From: SAR92 clade bacterium | GTDB taxonomy: Bacteria; Pseudomonadota; Gammaproteobacteria; Pseudomonadales; Porticoccaceae | Direction: 5' to 3' | Assembly (NCBI GenBank): GCA_014381985.1 | Contig: JACNKP010000081.1 | Span: 1-64,000, forward strand | Length of the DNA stretch: 64,000 bases | In this document: positions 18,593-25,446 of the stretch, piece after piece | How the letters are laid out: each line of letters begins with the position of its first letter | Position numbering within the stretch: position 1 is the stretch's first letter | Made by a program: the position numbers and the translations under genes | The notes under the pieces: generated by a model | Databases searched by the model: none | What the model was told of the DNA's origin: nothing | What the model saw: only the letters and a program-made list of their open reading frames with translations

Positions 18593-19537
18593 ATGGAGAC
18601 ACAAAACATGGCATCACAACAAGATTACTCTATTGGAACCCCGGGAAAACCATGGCGGGATGAAGAAAAGGCGGCTTGGCTAAGCCAGCAAACAATTAAA
18701 CGTTCCTACCAGCAACAGGTAGTGACTAAGGTAGAGGCGATAGGCCAGGATTTATCAGAGCTGGTCATTGTCGAGCAATACGGCGCTCTGTCTTTTGATC
18801 CAGACACCTATACCCTATGGGTGATCAAAACGAAAAACTGGCAAGACGATAAACCCACAGTATTTATTACAGGTGGTGTGCATGGCTATGAGACTAGTGG
18901 CGTGCAAGGCGCTCTGCGGTTCGTCGAGACTATGTTGGCATCTTACGCCGACACCTATAATTTTGTCGTGGCACCCTGCATCAGTCCCTGGGGATATGAA
19001 ACGATTAATCGTTGGAACCCTAATGCCATTGATCCTAATCGGTCTTTTAAACTTGGCACAGCAGTAGAAGAAGCCAGCTGCATTATGAGCTACATTAAAG
19101 GTCTTACTGTTCCTATACTTACCCACCTTGATTTACATGAAACGACAGACACTGACAACTCTGAATTTAGGCCAGCCTTAGAAGCTCGCGACGCTGTTGA
19201 ACAAGCGTTGTGGGAAATCCCTGATGGTTTTTACGGTGTGGGTGATAGCGAAAATCCGGTGCCAGAGTTTCAGAAAGCAATTATTGATGCCGTAGAAAAA
19301 GTAACCCACATAGCGCCATCAGATGAAAATAACTATTTAATTGGTGCTAAAACAGAACAGCGGGGTGTGATAAATTACCCTATTAAAGGTCTTGGATTGT
19401 GCGCTGGATTTACCGATGCACCTTTTGTGACTACTACCGAAGTCTATCCAGACAGCCCGCGGGTAGATGATGAAAATTGCATCATGGCGCAGGTTGCTGC
19501 GGTTAAGGGTGCGCTAGATTATCTTAAAGCGATCTAA
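18593..19537 (+). CDS. M14-family zinc carboxypeptidase / succinylglutamate desuccinylase-like protein
   Basis: ITGGVHGYETSGVQGALRFVETM (HxxE) ... NRWNPNAIDPNRSFK ... THLDLHETTDTDNSEFRP; start codon directly abuts the upstream stop (TAAATG). Confidence 0.85.
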   Translation: METQNMASQQDYSIGTPGKPWRDEEKAAWLSQQTIKRSYQQQVVTKVEAIGQDLSELVIVEQYGALSFDPDTYTLWVIKTKNWQDDKPTVFITGGVHGYETSGVQGALRFVETMLASYADTYNFVVAPCISPWGYETINRWNPNAIDPNRSFKLGTAVEEASCIMSYIKGLTVPILTHLDLHETTDTDNSEFRPALEARDAVEQALWEIPDGFYGVGDSENPVPEFQKAIIDAVEKVTHIAPSDENNYLIGAKTEQRGVINYPIKGLGLCAGFTDAPFVTTTEVYPDSPRVDDENCIMAQVAAVKGALDYLKAI

Positions 19538-19689
19538 AGTAAGGTGTTCTCTCGATCAGTTAAGGTGCGACATAAATTACCACTTGGAACAAAGGTGCAG
19601 GCGTCTGGGGAAAAACTGCTTAGGTGTATTTATAGAATTAAATCTATATGTAACAGAAACAGAGGCTATTTACCTCAGGCCGTTAAGCT

Positions 19690-20901
19690 TTAGTCAGTCC
19701 AATAATGATTAATATCTTTGATGCCCCACCTTTCTGGCAGTTCAGGCCCGACGATCTTGTCTTTAATAGATGGGTCTGAAAAGTCGATAACTTCTGCTTT
19801 AATATACGTATTCAGCCTAGAGGAAAAAAACACCTTTACTCTAGGCTTCAGCAAAGTCCCTTTATTTTGTTCATAGACAACACCTATTTTACCGCTGGCA
19901 AGCCCGACTAAGCAGCCAATAGGGTAGATTCCTATCATCTTGACAAAACCTTGAAATAATTGAGGGTCAAAATGACCTTTCCATTGAGACATTCGCTGCA
20001 GAGCTTCAGCAGCGTTCCAACCTTTCTTGTAAGGGCGGTCTGAGGTAACAGCATCATAGACATCACAGATAGCCCCCATTCTCGATAGAAGACTAATCTG
20101 ATCTCCTTTAAGCCCCATTGGGTACCCAGAGCCATCAATTTTTTCGTGATGGTGCAGGCAAACATCCAGAGCCGTAGCACCAACGTTATAATGCTTAGTG
20201 AGTATTTTATAGCCTTCATCGGGATGAGTTTTCATTAACGCGTATTCTTGATCGGTTAATTTACCTGGCTTGTTTAAAATATCATCAGGCATTTTAGTCT
20301 TTCCGATATCATGTAAAAGGCCAGCGATTCCTGCGTCAGTGCACTCTTGTTGATCGAGGCCTATTGAATTGGCTAGCGCGATCATTAGAGCGCAGACCGC
20401 TACAGAATGCATATAGGTGTATTCGTCAGCTGTTTTAATTCGCATTATGCTAATCAGTGCATCAGAGTTGCGCATCACTGACTGAGATATTTCGCTCACC
20501 ACTGTTTTGGTAGTACTTAAATCAATAGATTTACCCATACGGGCGTCATTGAACATAGATTGAATTGCTTTTTTAGACTTGGCATAGACCTTGGTTGCTT
20601 GCTTAATCTCGTCCCCCATTGGCACGGTTTTAGGTGCCGGAATTATTTGATCGGGCAGTTCAGGCAGAATTAAATCACAGGGCTCAAAGTGGGTGACGAT
20701 GCCTAGCCCTTTATGGGTATCGATGACGACTTCGGTAATATTACTTTGCCGTATTGTGAGGATGTCTTTGTGAGACTCTAGAGTGAAATCCGAGCGCCAA
20801 AAAGGATGGTCTAACCATCTACCACAGAACTTATGCACATGCATGCCGAGTGTTAAGTCCCTAGTGTTGATTTTTTTAAGCATCACGGTAATGTCCTTCA
20901 T
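19690..20901 (-). CDS. HD-GYP domain protein, putative c-di-GMP phosphodiesterase (DUF3391 N-terminus)
   Basis: AGLLHDIGKTKMPDDILNKPGKLTDQEYALMKTHPDEGYKIL and HHEKIDGSGYPMGLKGDQISLLSRMGAICDVYDAVTSDRPYKKG. Confidence 0.95.
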   Translation of the reverse strand: MKDITVMLKKINTRDLTLGMHVHKFCGRWLDHPFWRSDFTLESHKDILTIRQSNITEVVIDTHKGLGIVTHFEPCDLILPELPDQIIPAPKTVPMGDEIKQATKVYAKSKKAIQSMFNDARMGKSIDLSTTKTVVSEISQSVMRNSDALISIMRIKTADEYTYMHSVAVCALMIALANSIGLDQQECTDAGIAGLLHDIGKTKMPDDILNKPGKLTDQEYALMKTHPDEGYKILTKHYNVGATALDVCLHHHEKIDGSGYPMGLKGDQISLLSRMGAICDVYDAVTSDRPYKKGWNAAEALQRMSQWKGHFDPQLFQGFVKMIGIYPIGCLVGLASGKIGVVYEQNKGTLLKPRVKVFFSSRLNTYIKAEVIDFSDPSIKDKIVGPELPERWGIKDINHYWTD

Positions 20902-21122
20902 GGCTCAAAATAAAAATAAAGTCTGTTTTTGGCCTTTGAGATTTGCTGACTCGTTGGGCAATATAGGATGCTATAACCATGCTGCGAAATATCTTCAGTG
21001 TGCTGTGAGCAACGACACCATAACTTTATTATATCTATACATTTATGTATAAGTATAAAACCATTTGTAGTGTGCGTTGTCTATCTTTGAGTGAGCTATT
21101 TTGAATAACTTAAGGGTGGCAT

Positions 21123-21326
21123 ATGGAGCGGCAATCGAGGAGACTAATCATTATCGGGTTACTTTTGTCCGTTATAAACTTGTTCGTTATTTCATGTGAT
21201 CAGGATGCCTTTGTCACACTAAGCGTATTTTTTTTGCTTTTTATGTTGTCCAGTCAGTCTTGGATTAGTCTTTTGTTTGTGCGCCTAAGGCAAAGGCTCA
21301 TTTTTAAACAAAAGAGGGGGAGTTAA
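21123..21326 (+). CDS. small hydrophobic protein, 67 aa (copy A)
   Basis: MERQSRRLIIIGLLLSVINLFVISCDQDAFVTLSVFFLLFMLSSQSWISLLFVRLRQRLIFKQKRGS: two hydrophobic segments and a basic tail; duplicated at 22247. Confidence 0.5.
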   Translation: MERQSRRLIIIGLLLSVINLFVISCDQDAFVTLSVFFLLFMLSSQSWISLLFVRLRQRLIFKQKRGS

Positions 21327-21427
21327 GGGAATATTTAAGGCATCCAAAGATTCTAACGACCCAAAGGGGATGCCACGCAAGCATGATGTCCATGCCTCAA
21401 CTGCAAGGGCCCATCGGCAGACCAAAA

Positions 21428-21449
21428 GGGACTAGAGCATACTAGTCCC
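21428..21449. terminator. hairpin between convergent ORFs (copy A)
   Basis: GGGACTAG-AGCATA-CTAGTCCC perfect 8-bp stem. Confidence 0.6.
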
Positions 21450-21469
21450 CCACATTAGATCACTAACCT

Positions 21470-21739
21470 CTAGATTTGATAATCCAAGACTTTATACCCA
21501 AGGGCTTTAAGCTGGGGTCGCAGAGTCTTTGCATCACCAACAACAACCATTAACATATCGTCAACGGCGAGGTGCTTTTTAGCGAGCGCATTGATCTCAG
21601 CTTTAGTGATATTGGTCACTATTTCAGCGCGCTGACGCACAAAGTCTGGGGTTAGGTCGTGCTCTAAAATCTGCGCCAAGAAGGCCAACTTGGCTCTCGG
21701 GGTTTCATATTTTAGGGCGTCTTTTTGATTGATTTCCAT
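21470..21739 (-). pseudogene. orphan C-terminal fragment of M16 metalloprotease (duplicate)
   Basis: 87 residues (INQKDALKYETPRAKL...KVLDYQI) identical to the C-terminus of the full-length protease at 22594-25446; no HxxEH motif; ATG is created at the duplication junction. Confidence 0.9.
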
Positions 21740-21794
21740 AAAATGTAATCTAAAGATGGCCCCAGCTATTGTTATTACACGATAAGGGGGACGG

Positions 21795-22145
21795 TTATAG
21801 TTTAATATCGAAGTGTTTAATCACGGATTCTAAGATTTCCCAGGTACCTTTAAATCCGGCTTCGACCACAAAGGCATCCCCAGGGCCCACATTAATGGGC
21901 TCCTCGTCGTCGGGTGTGATGGTGATTCTGCCTTCTATGAGATGAACAAATTCATACTCTGAATAGGTTGCATGGTAGGTTCCCGGAGTGGCCGTCCAGA
22001 TACCAGAAATCATGCTCCCATCATTTGAGGTATGAAGCACCCAAGTTTTCATGGTTGGCTCACCTTTGACGATCGTCCAACCCTCTAGATCTTCACTGAG
22101 CATTTCAGCTGATTGCTGATTGTCGAGTTTAAATAAATGTTTCAT
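21795..22145 (-). CDS. cupin domain protein (EutQ-like/DUF861-type small cupin)
   Basis: EYEFVHLIEGRITITPDDEEPINVGPGDAFVVEAGFKGTWEILESVIKHF: single small cupin barrel. Confidence 0.8.
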   Translation of the reverse strand: MKHLFKLDNQQSAEMLSEDLEGWTIVKGEPTMKTWVLHTSNDGSMISGIWTATPGTYHATYSEYEFVHLIEGRITITPDDEEPINVGPGDAFVVEAGFKGTWEILESVIKHFDIKL

Positions 22146-22246
22146 TTATAGAGTCCTTTTATAAGCAGTGTTAAGAGTCCCTTAAGATTTGCAATATAAC
22201 CTACATAGGGTAATTACACGATTTTGACTAACTTGAGGAACAGTGT

Positions 22247-22450
22247 ATGGAGCGGCAATCGACGAGACTAATCATTATCGGGTTACTTTTGTCCGTTATA
22301 AACTTGTTCGTTATTTCATGTGATCAGGATGCCTTTGTCACACTAAGCGTATTTTTTTTGCTTTTTATGTTGTCCAGTCAGTCTTGGATTAGTCTTTTGT
22401 TTGTGCGCCTAAGGCAAAGGCTCATTTTTAAACAAAAGAGGGGGAGTTAA
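22247..22450 (+). CDS. small hydrophobic protein, 67 aa (copy B)
   Basis: Same as copy A except R6T. Confidence 0.5.
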   Translation: MERQSTRLIIIGLLLSVINLFVISCDQDAFVTLSVFFLLFMLSSQSWISLLFVRLRQRLIFKQKRGS

Positions 22451-22551
22451 GGGAATATTTAAGGCATCCAAAGATTCTAACGACCCAAAGGGGATGCCAC
22501 GCAAGCATGATGTCCATGCCTCAACTGCAAGGGCCCATCGGCAGACCAAAA

Positions 22552-22573
22552 GGGACTAGAGCATACTAGTCCC
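22552..22573. terminator. hairpin between convergent ORFs (copy B)
   Basis: GGGACTAG-AGCATA-CTAGTCCC. Confidence 0.6.
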
Positions 22574-22593
22574 CCACATTAGATCACTAACCT

Positions 22594-25446
22594 CTAGATT
22601 TGATAATCCAAGACTTTATACCCAAGGGCTTTAAGCTGGGGTCGCAGAGTCTTTGCATCACCAACAACAACCATTAACATATCGTCAACGGCGAGGTGCT
22701 TTTTAGCGAGCGCATTGATCTCAGCTTTAGTGATATTGGTCACTATTTCAGCGCGCTGACGCACAAAGTCTGGGGTTAGGTCGTGCTCTAAAATCTGCGC
22801 CAAGAAGGCCAACTTGGCTCTCGGGGTTTCATATTTTAGGGCGTCTTTTTGATTGATTGAGTTACGCATAAACATCAACTCATCATCCGTAATTCCACGT
22901 TCAGAATAGTCTTTGATCTCATTAATAAATTCGACAATAGACTTATCCGTTGCGTCCGCTCGTACTTCTGCGGTCGCGGTGTAATAACCAGACAATTTGC
23001 CGCCATTAAAATAGGATCTAGCACCATAGGTGTAGCCTTTATCTTCTCGCAGATTTAAATTAATGCGACTGTTAAAGGCCCCACCAAGCGCGAAATTCAT
23101 TAGCGATGATTTGTAGTATTCACCGGTAATATCTTCAGTCATGGAGCGCTTTCCTATTCGAATAGCAGATTGAGCGGCGTCATCTTTATTGACCAGATAA
23201 ATCACACCCATTTTGCCGTCACCTTCTGGCAGAGATAAATTTAGATCGACAGCTTTTCCTTCCCAGTCTTCCAATATAGAGAGTGATTTAGTCAGTTCAG
23301 CCTGACCTAAGTCAGATACCGCAATCAACTGTCCGCCAAAAGGTTTTACCTGTTGTTGATAAAACGCTTTAACATCATCCAACGAGATATTGGTAAGCGA
23401 TTTTTCATTACCAGAGCTTGGCATAGCAGCAATATTATCAGCGTTCAGCAGTTGTCGATAGGCTGTGGAGGCTAAATAACCAGCATCTTTCCTATTATTT
23501 AGTGTGCCTTGAATGGCATTGCTCTTTAATCGCTCGAATTCACTTTCCAGAAACGCAGGGGCTCTAAGTTGTTCATTGACTAGGGTTAGGGTCGCATCTA
23601 AATTTTTAGTCAGTGAACTAATATTAATATTTAGGTAAAGGTTGCCGGCAGAGATGTAAATTGAACTGCCAAGCTTTTGCAGGGCCTTACTCATTTCTTC
23701 GGCACTACGTTCTGTTGTTGATTCTTTAAGCATGCTAGCAACTAAGCCAGCGGTACCTGCTGTATTTTTGGCGTTGTAGTAGTGGCCAGCAGGAATTTTT
23801 AGTAATACCGACGTAGTCGGGGTTTCGATGCTTTGAGCGCCTAGAATGGATATGCCATTATCAAAATTATGCTGCCACATTTCTGGAATATCGACGGCTT
23901 TGTTAGCGCCTGCAATGGGAATTATACTTCGATCAAAATCATCGACTCCTTTGCGCACAGCAATATCATCTTCAGAGGTGGAGGCTCCGTCGCCTGCGCT
24001 TCTTGGGCCAGGCACAAAATTATCTTTTGCCGCTATTGCGCTTAGTTGGCCATTAGGTACCACGCTCATTATCACGCCATGCTGATCTTTAATGTATTTT
24101 TTAAAGACACGCATAACATCTTCTTTGCTTACATTATTGTAGCGGGCTATGTCTTGTGCAATGTAGTTAGGGTTGTTGGAGAAGGTTTGATTAGCGGCTA
24201 ACTGGCTCACTTTGCCTGACACACTTTGCAGACCAAAGATAAATGAGGCTTCCATATCAGCTTTAGCCTTTAGCAAATCATCATCTTCAACACCTCGCTG
24301 TTCGAATTCAACCAAGGTGTCGCGGATAACGTTTTCAATGTCAGAGAGTGATTTGCCGGAAGCGGGATGTGGTAGTGCGTATAAGCTAAAAGTACAGCTC
24401 AATTCAGCGCAGGGATGGCTCACTTCAGCTTGCACTGCAAATTGTGTTTTGACTAAGTTTTTATACAGTAGAGATGCCTTCCCGCCACCCAATATGCTGG
24501 ACAAGACATCCAAAGGGGCTTCGTCCGCATGACGCAGTGAAACTGTTGGATAGGTCATGTAAAGGAGCGGCAGATGAACGTTGTCTTCCATCGAGATATA
24601 ACGATCTTCAGCAATCTCAATCACTGATTTTTCTGGCATGGCCACTTCGGGACCCCGAGGGATTGAACCAAAGTATTTTTTAACCAGAACTAATGTCTCG
24701 GTAATATTAATGTCACCGCCAATGGTGAGTGTCGCATTATTGGGTCCGTACCATCGAAGAAAGAAAGCTTTTAAATCGTTCACATTGACGCGATTCAAGT
24801 CATCCAAGTAACCGATTACTGGCCATGAATAGGCGTGGCCAGCAGGGTAAAGCGCTTCAGATACTCGCTCATTAAGGCGACCATAAGGTCGATTGTCGAC
24901 ACGCTGACCGCGTTCATTTTTTACAGTTTCACGTTGCACCTCAAATTTTTCTTGGGTAACGGCATCCACTAAAAATCCCATTCGGTCGGCTTCAAGCCAG
25001 AGCATCTTTTCTAATTGATTCGCTGGCACTGTTTGAAAATAGTTAGTGCGATCAGTATTGGTTGTCCCATTCATTGTGCCACCTGCCTCGGTGACTAACT
25101 TAAAGTGCTGCTCGTCGTCGACGTTTTCTGAGCCCTGGAACATCATATGTTCGAAAAAGTGCGCAAATCCAGACTTGCCCAAATCTTCTCTTCCTGACCC
25201 CACATGATAGGTGATGTCGACGTGAACTAAAGGGTCTGAATTGTCTGAATGTAAAATCAGAGTTAAACCATTATCCAGCACAAACTTCTGATAAGGGATA
25301 ATAGTCTTACCATTCTCGCCAATCACTTCCTCAACGAATTCAATTCCTTCGATAGAGGAGACTGATTCTTTGTTGTTATTTGGATTTTCTTCACCTTGGC
25401 AAGCGGCTAGGCAGAGGATAATAAGTAGAATGGACCAATTTTTCAT
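22594..25446 (-). CDS. M16 family zinc metalloprotease, lipoprotein
   Basis: 950 aa; lipobox LCLAAC; zinc motif HFFEHMMFQGSENV (HxxEH) with downstream E; two M16 repeats. Confidence 0.95.
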   Translation of the reverse strand: MKNWSILLIILCLAACQGEENPNNNKESVSSIEGIEFVEEVIGENGKTIIPYQKFVLDNGLTLILHSDNSDPLVHVDITYHVGSGREDLGKSGFAHFFEHMMFQGSENVDDEQHFKLVTEAGGTMNGTTNTDRTNYFQTVPANQLEKMLWLEADRMGFLVDAVTQEKFEVQRETVKNERGQRVDNRPYGRLNERVSEALYPAGHAYSWPVIGYLDDLNRVNVNDLKAFFLRWYGPNNATLTIGGDINITETLVLVKKYFGSIPRGPEVAMPEKSVIEIAEDRYISMEDNVHLPLLYMTYPTVSLRHADEAPLDVLSSILGGGKASLLYKNLVKTQFAVQAEVSHPCAELSCTFSLYALPHPASGKSLSDIENVIRDTLVEFEQRGVEDDDLLKAKADMEASFIFGLQSVSGKVSQLAANQTFSNNPNYIAQDIARYNNVSKEDVMRVFKKYIKDQHGVIMSVVPNGQLSAIAAKDNFVPGPRSAGDGASTSEDDIAVRKGVDDFDRSIIPIAGANKAVDIPEMWQHNFDNGISILGAQSIETPTTSVLLKIPAGHYYNAKNTAGTAGLVASMLKESTTERSAEEMSKALQKLGSSIYISAGNLYLNINISSLTKNLDATLTLVNEQLRAPAFLESEFERLKSNAIQGTLNNRKDAGYLASTAYRQLLNADNIAAMPSSGNEKSLTNISLDDVKAFYQQQVKPFGGQLIAVSDLGQAELTKSLSILEDWEGKAVDLNLSLPEGDGKMGVIYLVNKDDAAQSAIRIGKRSMTEDITGEYYKSSLMNFALGGAFNSRINLNLREDKGYTYGARSYFNGGKLSGYYTATAEVRADATDKSIVEFINEIKDYSERGITDDELMFMRNSINQKDALKYETPRAKLAFLAQILEHDLTPDFVRQRAEIVTNITKAEINALAKKHLAVDDMLMVVVGDAKTLRPQLKALGYKVLDYQI

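Follow-up and report, generated by a model that had tools for sequence, protein, structure and literature searches.

Here, we report that two nearly identical 613-bp direct repeats flank a cupin gene beside an M16 peptidase gene in the window (the whole 64,000-nucleotide stretch of DNA that was analysed). We read this layout, with a probability of about 0.65, as a recent partial duplication made through an illegitimate join together with replacement of the left flank, in an interval of variable gene content of a Porticoccaceae genome. Offset by exactly 1124 bp, the two copies share 612 of their 613 positions, the lone mismatch being a G in copy A (21139) and a C in copy B (22263). The earlier note had given these coordinates, this spacing and this single substitution, and all proved exact on alignment of both copies; its account of the contents was likewise borne out, i.e., a 67-aa ORF, a hairpin and an M16 3' end in each copy, with a single Cupin_3 gene in the 511 bp that separate them (Table 1). 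No other direct repeat of at least 40 bp is present in the 64-kb window, and these two copies were the only ones recovered when the entire assembly of 2.5 Mb and 82 contigs was searched. A recent local (tandem-type) duplication leaves near-identical direct copies, and the closest relative is then expected to carry only one at this place, as G043 does. The 1124-bp unit as a whole, however, is not repeated head to tail: the cupin spacer is single and the 613-bp part alone is doubled, therefore a second event would be needed beside a tandem duplication.

Table 1 Features of the repeat, its edges and the neighbouring genes in the window
Feature	Position	Strand	Remark
Remnant (88 bp) of deleted molybdopterin oxidoreductase gene end and following spacer	19545..19632	+	From comparison with G043
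DUF3391/HD-GYP gene	19690..20901	-	Apparently a recent arrival; best family relatives 57-58% identical, at other loci
Leader of copy A, diverged	21098..21115	+	ATTTTGAATAACTTAAGG; includes ribosome-binding-site region
Copy A of 613-bp repeat	21122..21734	+	Apparent newcomer; 67-aa ORF, hairpin, M16 3' fragment; absent here in G043 and G006
Predicted small membrane protein (67 aa), copy A	21123..21326	+	No Pfam or NCBIfam family
Orphan 3' fragment of M16 gene (89 aa)	21470..21739	-	In-frame ATG created by the junction
Right junction of copy A	21731..21737	.	M16 interior joined to cupin-downstream sequence; GATT shared
Cupin gene (116 aa, Cupin_3)	21795..22145	-	Apparently a long-standing resident; orthologues beside M16 in G006 and G043
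Leader of copy B	22221..22238	+	ATTTTGACTAACTTGAGG; identical in G043
Copy B of 613-bp repeat	22246..22858	+	Apparently in its inherited place; continuous with M16 gene, G043 arranged alike
Predicted small membrane protein (67 aa), copy B	22247..22450	+	One residue differs from copy A (R6T)
Hairpin, likely M16 terminator	22551..22574 (second copy 21427-21450)	-	Followed by TTTT on minus strand; stem also in G045
Full-length M16 peptidase (950 aa)	22594..25446	-	

The locus in related genomes

Within the genus, the genome nearest to the window at this locus is G043, with 89-94% DNA identity across the region; 9.6 kb can be aligned with the window at 93.6% DNA identity, starting within the repeat, and the identity amounts to ~93% over spacer plus repeat, against 96% in M16. 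The order in G043 is cupin, small ORF and M16, with one copy of the repeat and without copy A. In G006 (86% M16 protein identity), the cupin is also beside M16 and on the same strand, with a PDZ gene between them. A second copy of the repeat was not found in the other genus genomes searched, G043 included. Since the cupin lies beside M16 in both G043 and G006, it would be a resident of the locus and the single-copy state with the cupin would be inherited; cupin plus copy B thus appear to form the inherited arrangement, to which copy A was added. In G014 (88% M16 protein identity), the contig (L058 position 1, G014 C54) starts inside the stretch corresponding to the repeat of the window, and the genome yielded no second copy; contig breaks at repeats are common. 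The cupin also occurs near the M14 gene in five further species, among other neighbours.

These comparisons bear on the proposal of the earlier note that the cupin came as cargo of a ~1.1-kb circle and that a single-copy, cupin-free locus might be ancestral. A 1124-bp circle carrying the cupin and the repeat, integrated by a single crossover into a cupin-free locus of HD-GYP, small ORF and M16, would yield exactly the layout now seen (left flank, repeat, cupin, repeat, M16), and the HD-GYP gene and the different leader upstream of copy A could then be the resident left flank. Such an integration calls for a cupin-free ancestral locus, yet the cupin adjoins M16 in G006 and G043, G043 being single-copy with the cupin, which contradicts both parts of the proposal. 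The divergence of the cupin from G043 (4.3%) is like that of the adjoining M16 gene (4.1%), and the circle itself, with no replication or integration gene, would need an illegitimate join to close. G045, the single close relative without a cupin, has no HD-GYP gene either; the small ORF is likewise missing, and the oxidoreductase gene end is joined at TATTTA-GG to the pre-M16 spacer, which looks like a later, separate deletion. We therefore consider the circle quite improbable. A single-copy, cupin-free state would be the product of future recombination between the copies, not the ancestral one.

On the other side of the cupin, the gene content has changed. The M14 gene ends at 19537, and in G043, a [2Fe-2S]/molybdopterin oxidoreductase pair plus a methyltransferase then precede the cupin; the window has neither the pair nor the methyltransferase between M14 and the cupin, and holds there the 88-bp remnant, the HD-GYP gene and copy A. 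No close HD-GYP donor was found in 112 family or 392 order genomes, and the gene may be an import from an unsampled source. Throughout the post-M14 interval (window 19538-22593; L055, L154, L155, L156-L160), gene content is different in nearly every relative, the varying genes being the oxidoreductase pair, the methyltransferase, the PDZ protein, a flavin oxidoreductase, a helicase-like gene, HD-GYP and the cupin; deletion junctions of this interval sit at short matches.

Age and contents of the repeat

One difference in 613 positions has a 95% interval of 0.004-0.9%, vs a divergence between the window and G043 of about 2-12% over most sub-regions of the interval. By this measure, the copies would have arisen, or last been homogenised by conversion, long after the split from G043, in keeping with the recent origin or homogenisation suggested earlier. 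Please note that near-identity of the copies, here from one genome of the species, would speak for recency with or without gene conversion. If an old duplication had been held identical by ongoing gene conversion, the related though diverged leaders that precede the two copies would fit, as would a small-ORF 5' patch that both copies share and that is diverged from G043, while the copy-B leader matches G043. It is difficult to reconcile such an old duplication with the lack of a second copy in the other genus genomes searched, and we see no function for which the M16 tail in copy A would be retained, so we regard this explanation, too, as improbable.

It is also conceivable that the draft assembly merged two strain variants or looped the repeat, with one copy per cell, considering that the draft has 82 contigs and that a near-perfect repeat of ~600 bp exceeds a short read. 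However, the flanks of the copies are distinct on all four sides, there is one internal mismatch near the edge, no N is present in the window, and an artefact would have to create a specific novel junction from the M16 interior to the cupin-downstream sequence. An assembly artefact is unlikely in our opinion.

The 67-aa ORF is membrane-like in composition; it matched no Pfam or NCBIfam family, no plasmid protein and, across 392 genomes of the order, nothing beyond the window's own genome. In G043, the small ORF (L154 9402-9638) has ~75 bp (about 25 codons) deleted and a downstream one-base gap that shifts the C-terminal frame, so that the ORF runs on through the pre-hairpin region. Because it is altered in G043 and belongs to no Pfam/NCBIfam family, the ORF is probably dispensable. 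Short predicted membrane proteins (46-67 aa) in other species of the genus resemble it (L184, L194, L185-L190), with the consensus MxRLSRxLINIGLILSLINV... and unrelated neighbour genes; a profile built from the ORF and three relatives also recovered G055 (2e-18) and G006 (2e-7). The hairpin, GGGACTAG...CTAGTCCC, fits a terminator for M16 because of the TTTT that follows it on the minus strand, and the M16 portion inside the repeat is the last ~88 codons of the gene. Rfam returned nothing over 19500-23000. We see no reason to assign a function to the duplication.

Edges of copy A and the order of events

The two edges of copy A are of different kinds. At the right edge, M16 sequence (...TTTTTGATTGATT) continues into TCCATAAAATG; the matching place reads CAGATTACATAAAGTG in G043 and GATTGATTGAGTTACG in the intact M16, and GATT is common to the junction, M16 and the G043 site. 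The right junction would be an illegitimate join with a match of at most 4 bp, possibly microhomology, of which the 4-bp GATT is weak evidence. An end without extended homology, here GATT at most, is what homology-facilitated illegitimate recombination leaves on one side. The junction 21-mer has one exact match in viral contigs, where the surrounding sequence is unrelated, and we attribute it to chance.

The left edge is not clean, i.e., diverged but related sequence extends upstream of both start codons. The two leaders are alike at 16 of 18 positions, and their register to the start codon is equal within one base. With up to 4 mismatches allowed, the window has no further site like the copy-B leader 18-mer; with up to 1 allowed, the genome has no further site of the degenerate leader motif; and wider homology upstream of the two leaders is not above shuffles. 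The diverged leader is what would be seen if this other end had formed through homology with a donor; no donor of it was found in the 112 family or 392 order genomes. The copy-A leader is probably a diverged homologue that arrived with HD-GYP, the crossover lying in the first codons of the small ORF, and the single mismatch at 21139 is at the left edge, near this presumed crossover. At the 5' end of the small ORF, 9 of 37 aligned positions are different between G043 and copy B (hence copy A), while the copy-B leader is that of G043. Conversion of the copy-B 5' end by the imported sequence would fit, or G043 may be the odd one, having a deletion there.

A transposon-like or site-specific element inserting copy A could account for the sharp right edge, and nothing further in its favor was found. 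No recombinase is present among the neighbouring genes scanned, neither inverted repeats nor a target-site duplication were found at the repeat, and the genome holds one extra copy only, which makes such an insertion extremely unlikely. The earlier remark that no transposase is visible thus stands; in the duplication we see bacterial genome reshuffling of the ordinary kind and no new mobile element.

The repeat, the single-copy relatives, the gene gains and losses and the junction sequences are observations; from them, we infer the following order and mechanism for the partial duplication with left-flank replacement. The inherited locus would have been M14 peptidase, molybdopterin oxidoreductase pair, methyltransferase, cupin, small ORF and M16. 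This lineage lost the oxidoreductase and methyltransferase genes and gained HD-GYP, and an extra small ORF plus M16 tail came to lie beyond the cupin. In a first step, an illegitimate join would have formed, either as a 1124-bp tandem duplication or as the non-homologous end of a homology-facilitated illegitimate integration. In a second step, the left flank would have been replaced by HD-GYP-linked DNA with its diverged leader, recombining in the 5' end of the small ORF. The tandem duplication proposed as the other option in the earlier note is therefore viable for the right-hand junction and insufficient alone, as a second event would be needed to bring HD-GYP and the copy-A leader. The repeat-cupin-repeat layout should be unstable, the 1124-bp unit being open to deletion or amplification by RecA-type recombination. 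One may go further and picture the M14-M16 interval as a hotspot that traps foreign genes by one-sided homologous recombination, with the cupin, by virtue of the repeat, acting as a reversible cassette subject to loss or amplification within the population; we offer this as speculation and think it rather unlikely.

Comparison with known systems

This locus is a well-bounded case of an incoming gene and a partial duplication at one place in a marine-type lineage, with no visible mobile element and with a ~93%-identical single-copy relative for comparison; otherwise, it is ordinary genome turnover. Bacterial tandem duplications with short-homology join points are documented (PMC11111574), and the present repeat resembles them in being direct, in its definite join point with short or no homology and in its expected collapse or amplification by homologous recombination. 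It is unlike them in that the 613-bp part alone is doubled, the cupin part is single and the left flank is replaced. Homology-facilitated illegitimate recombination is also documented in bacteria (PMC3240628) and has been proposed to account for the displacement of resident genes and for orphan 3' ends in Vibrio T6SS arrays (PMC5361080). A new gene beside an old locus and a non-homologous join on one side are common to these systems and ours (PMC3240628, PMC5361080), and the orphan 3' gene end of that model (PMC3240628/PMC5361080) has its counterpart here in the 89-aa M16 tail. In contrast to the Vibrio arrays (PMC5361080), no toxin or immunity genes are present at this locus, and the homologous anchor and the donor are putative here.
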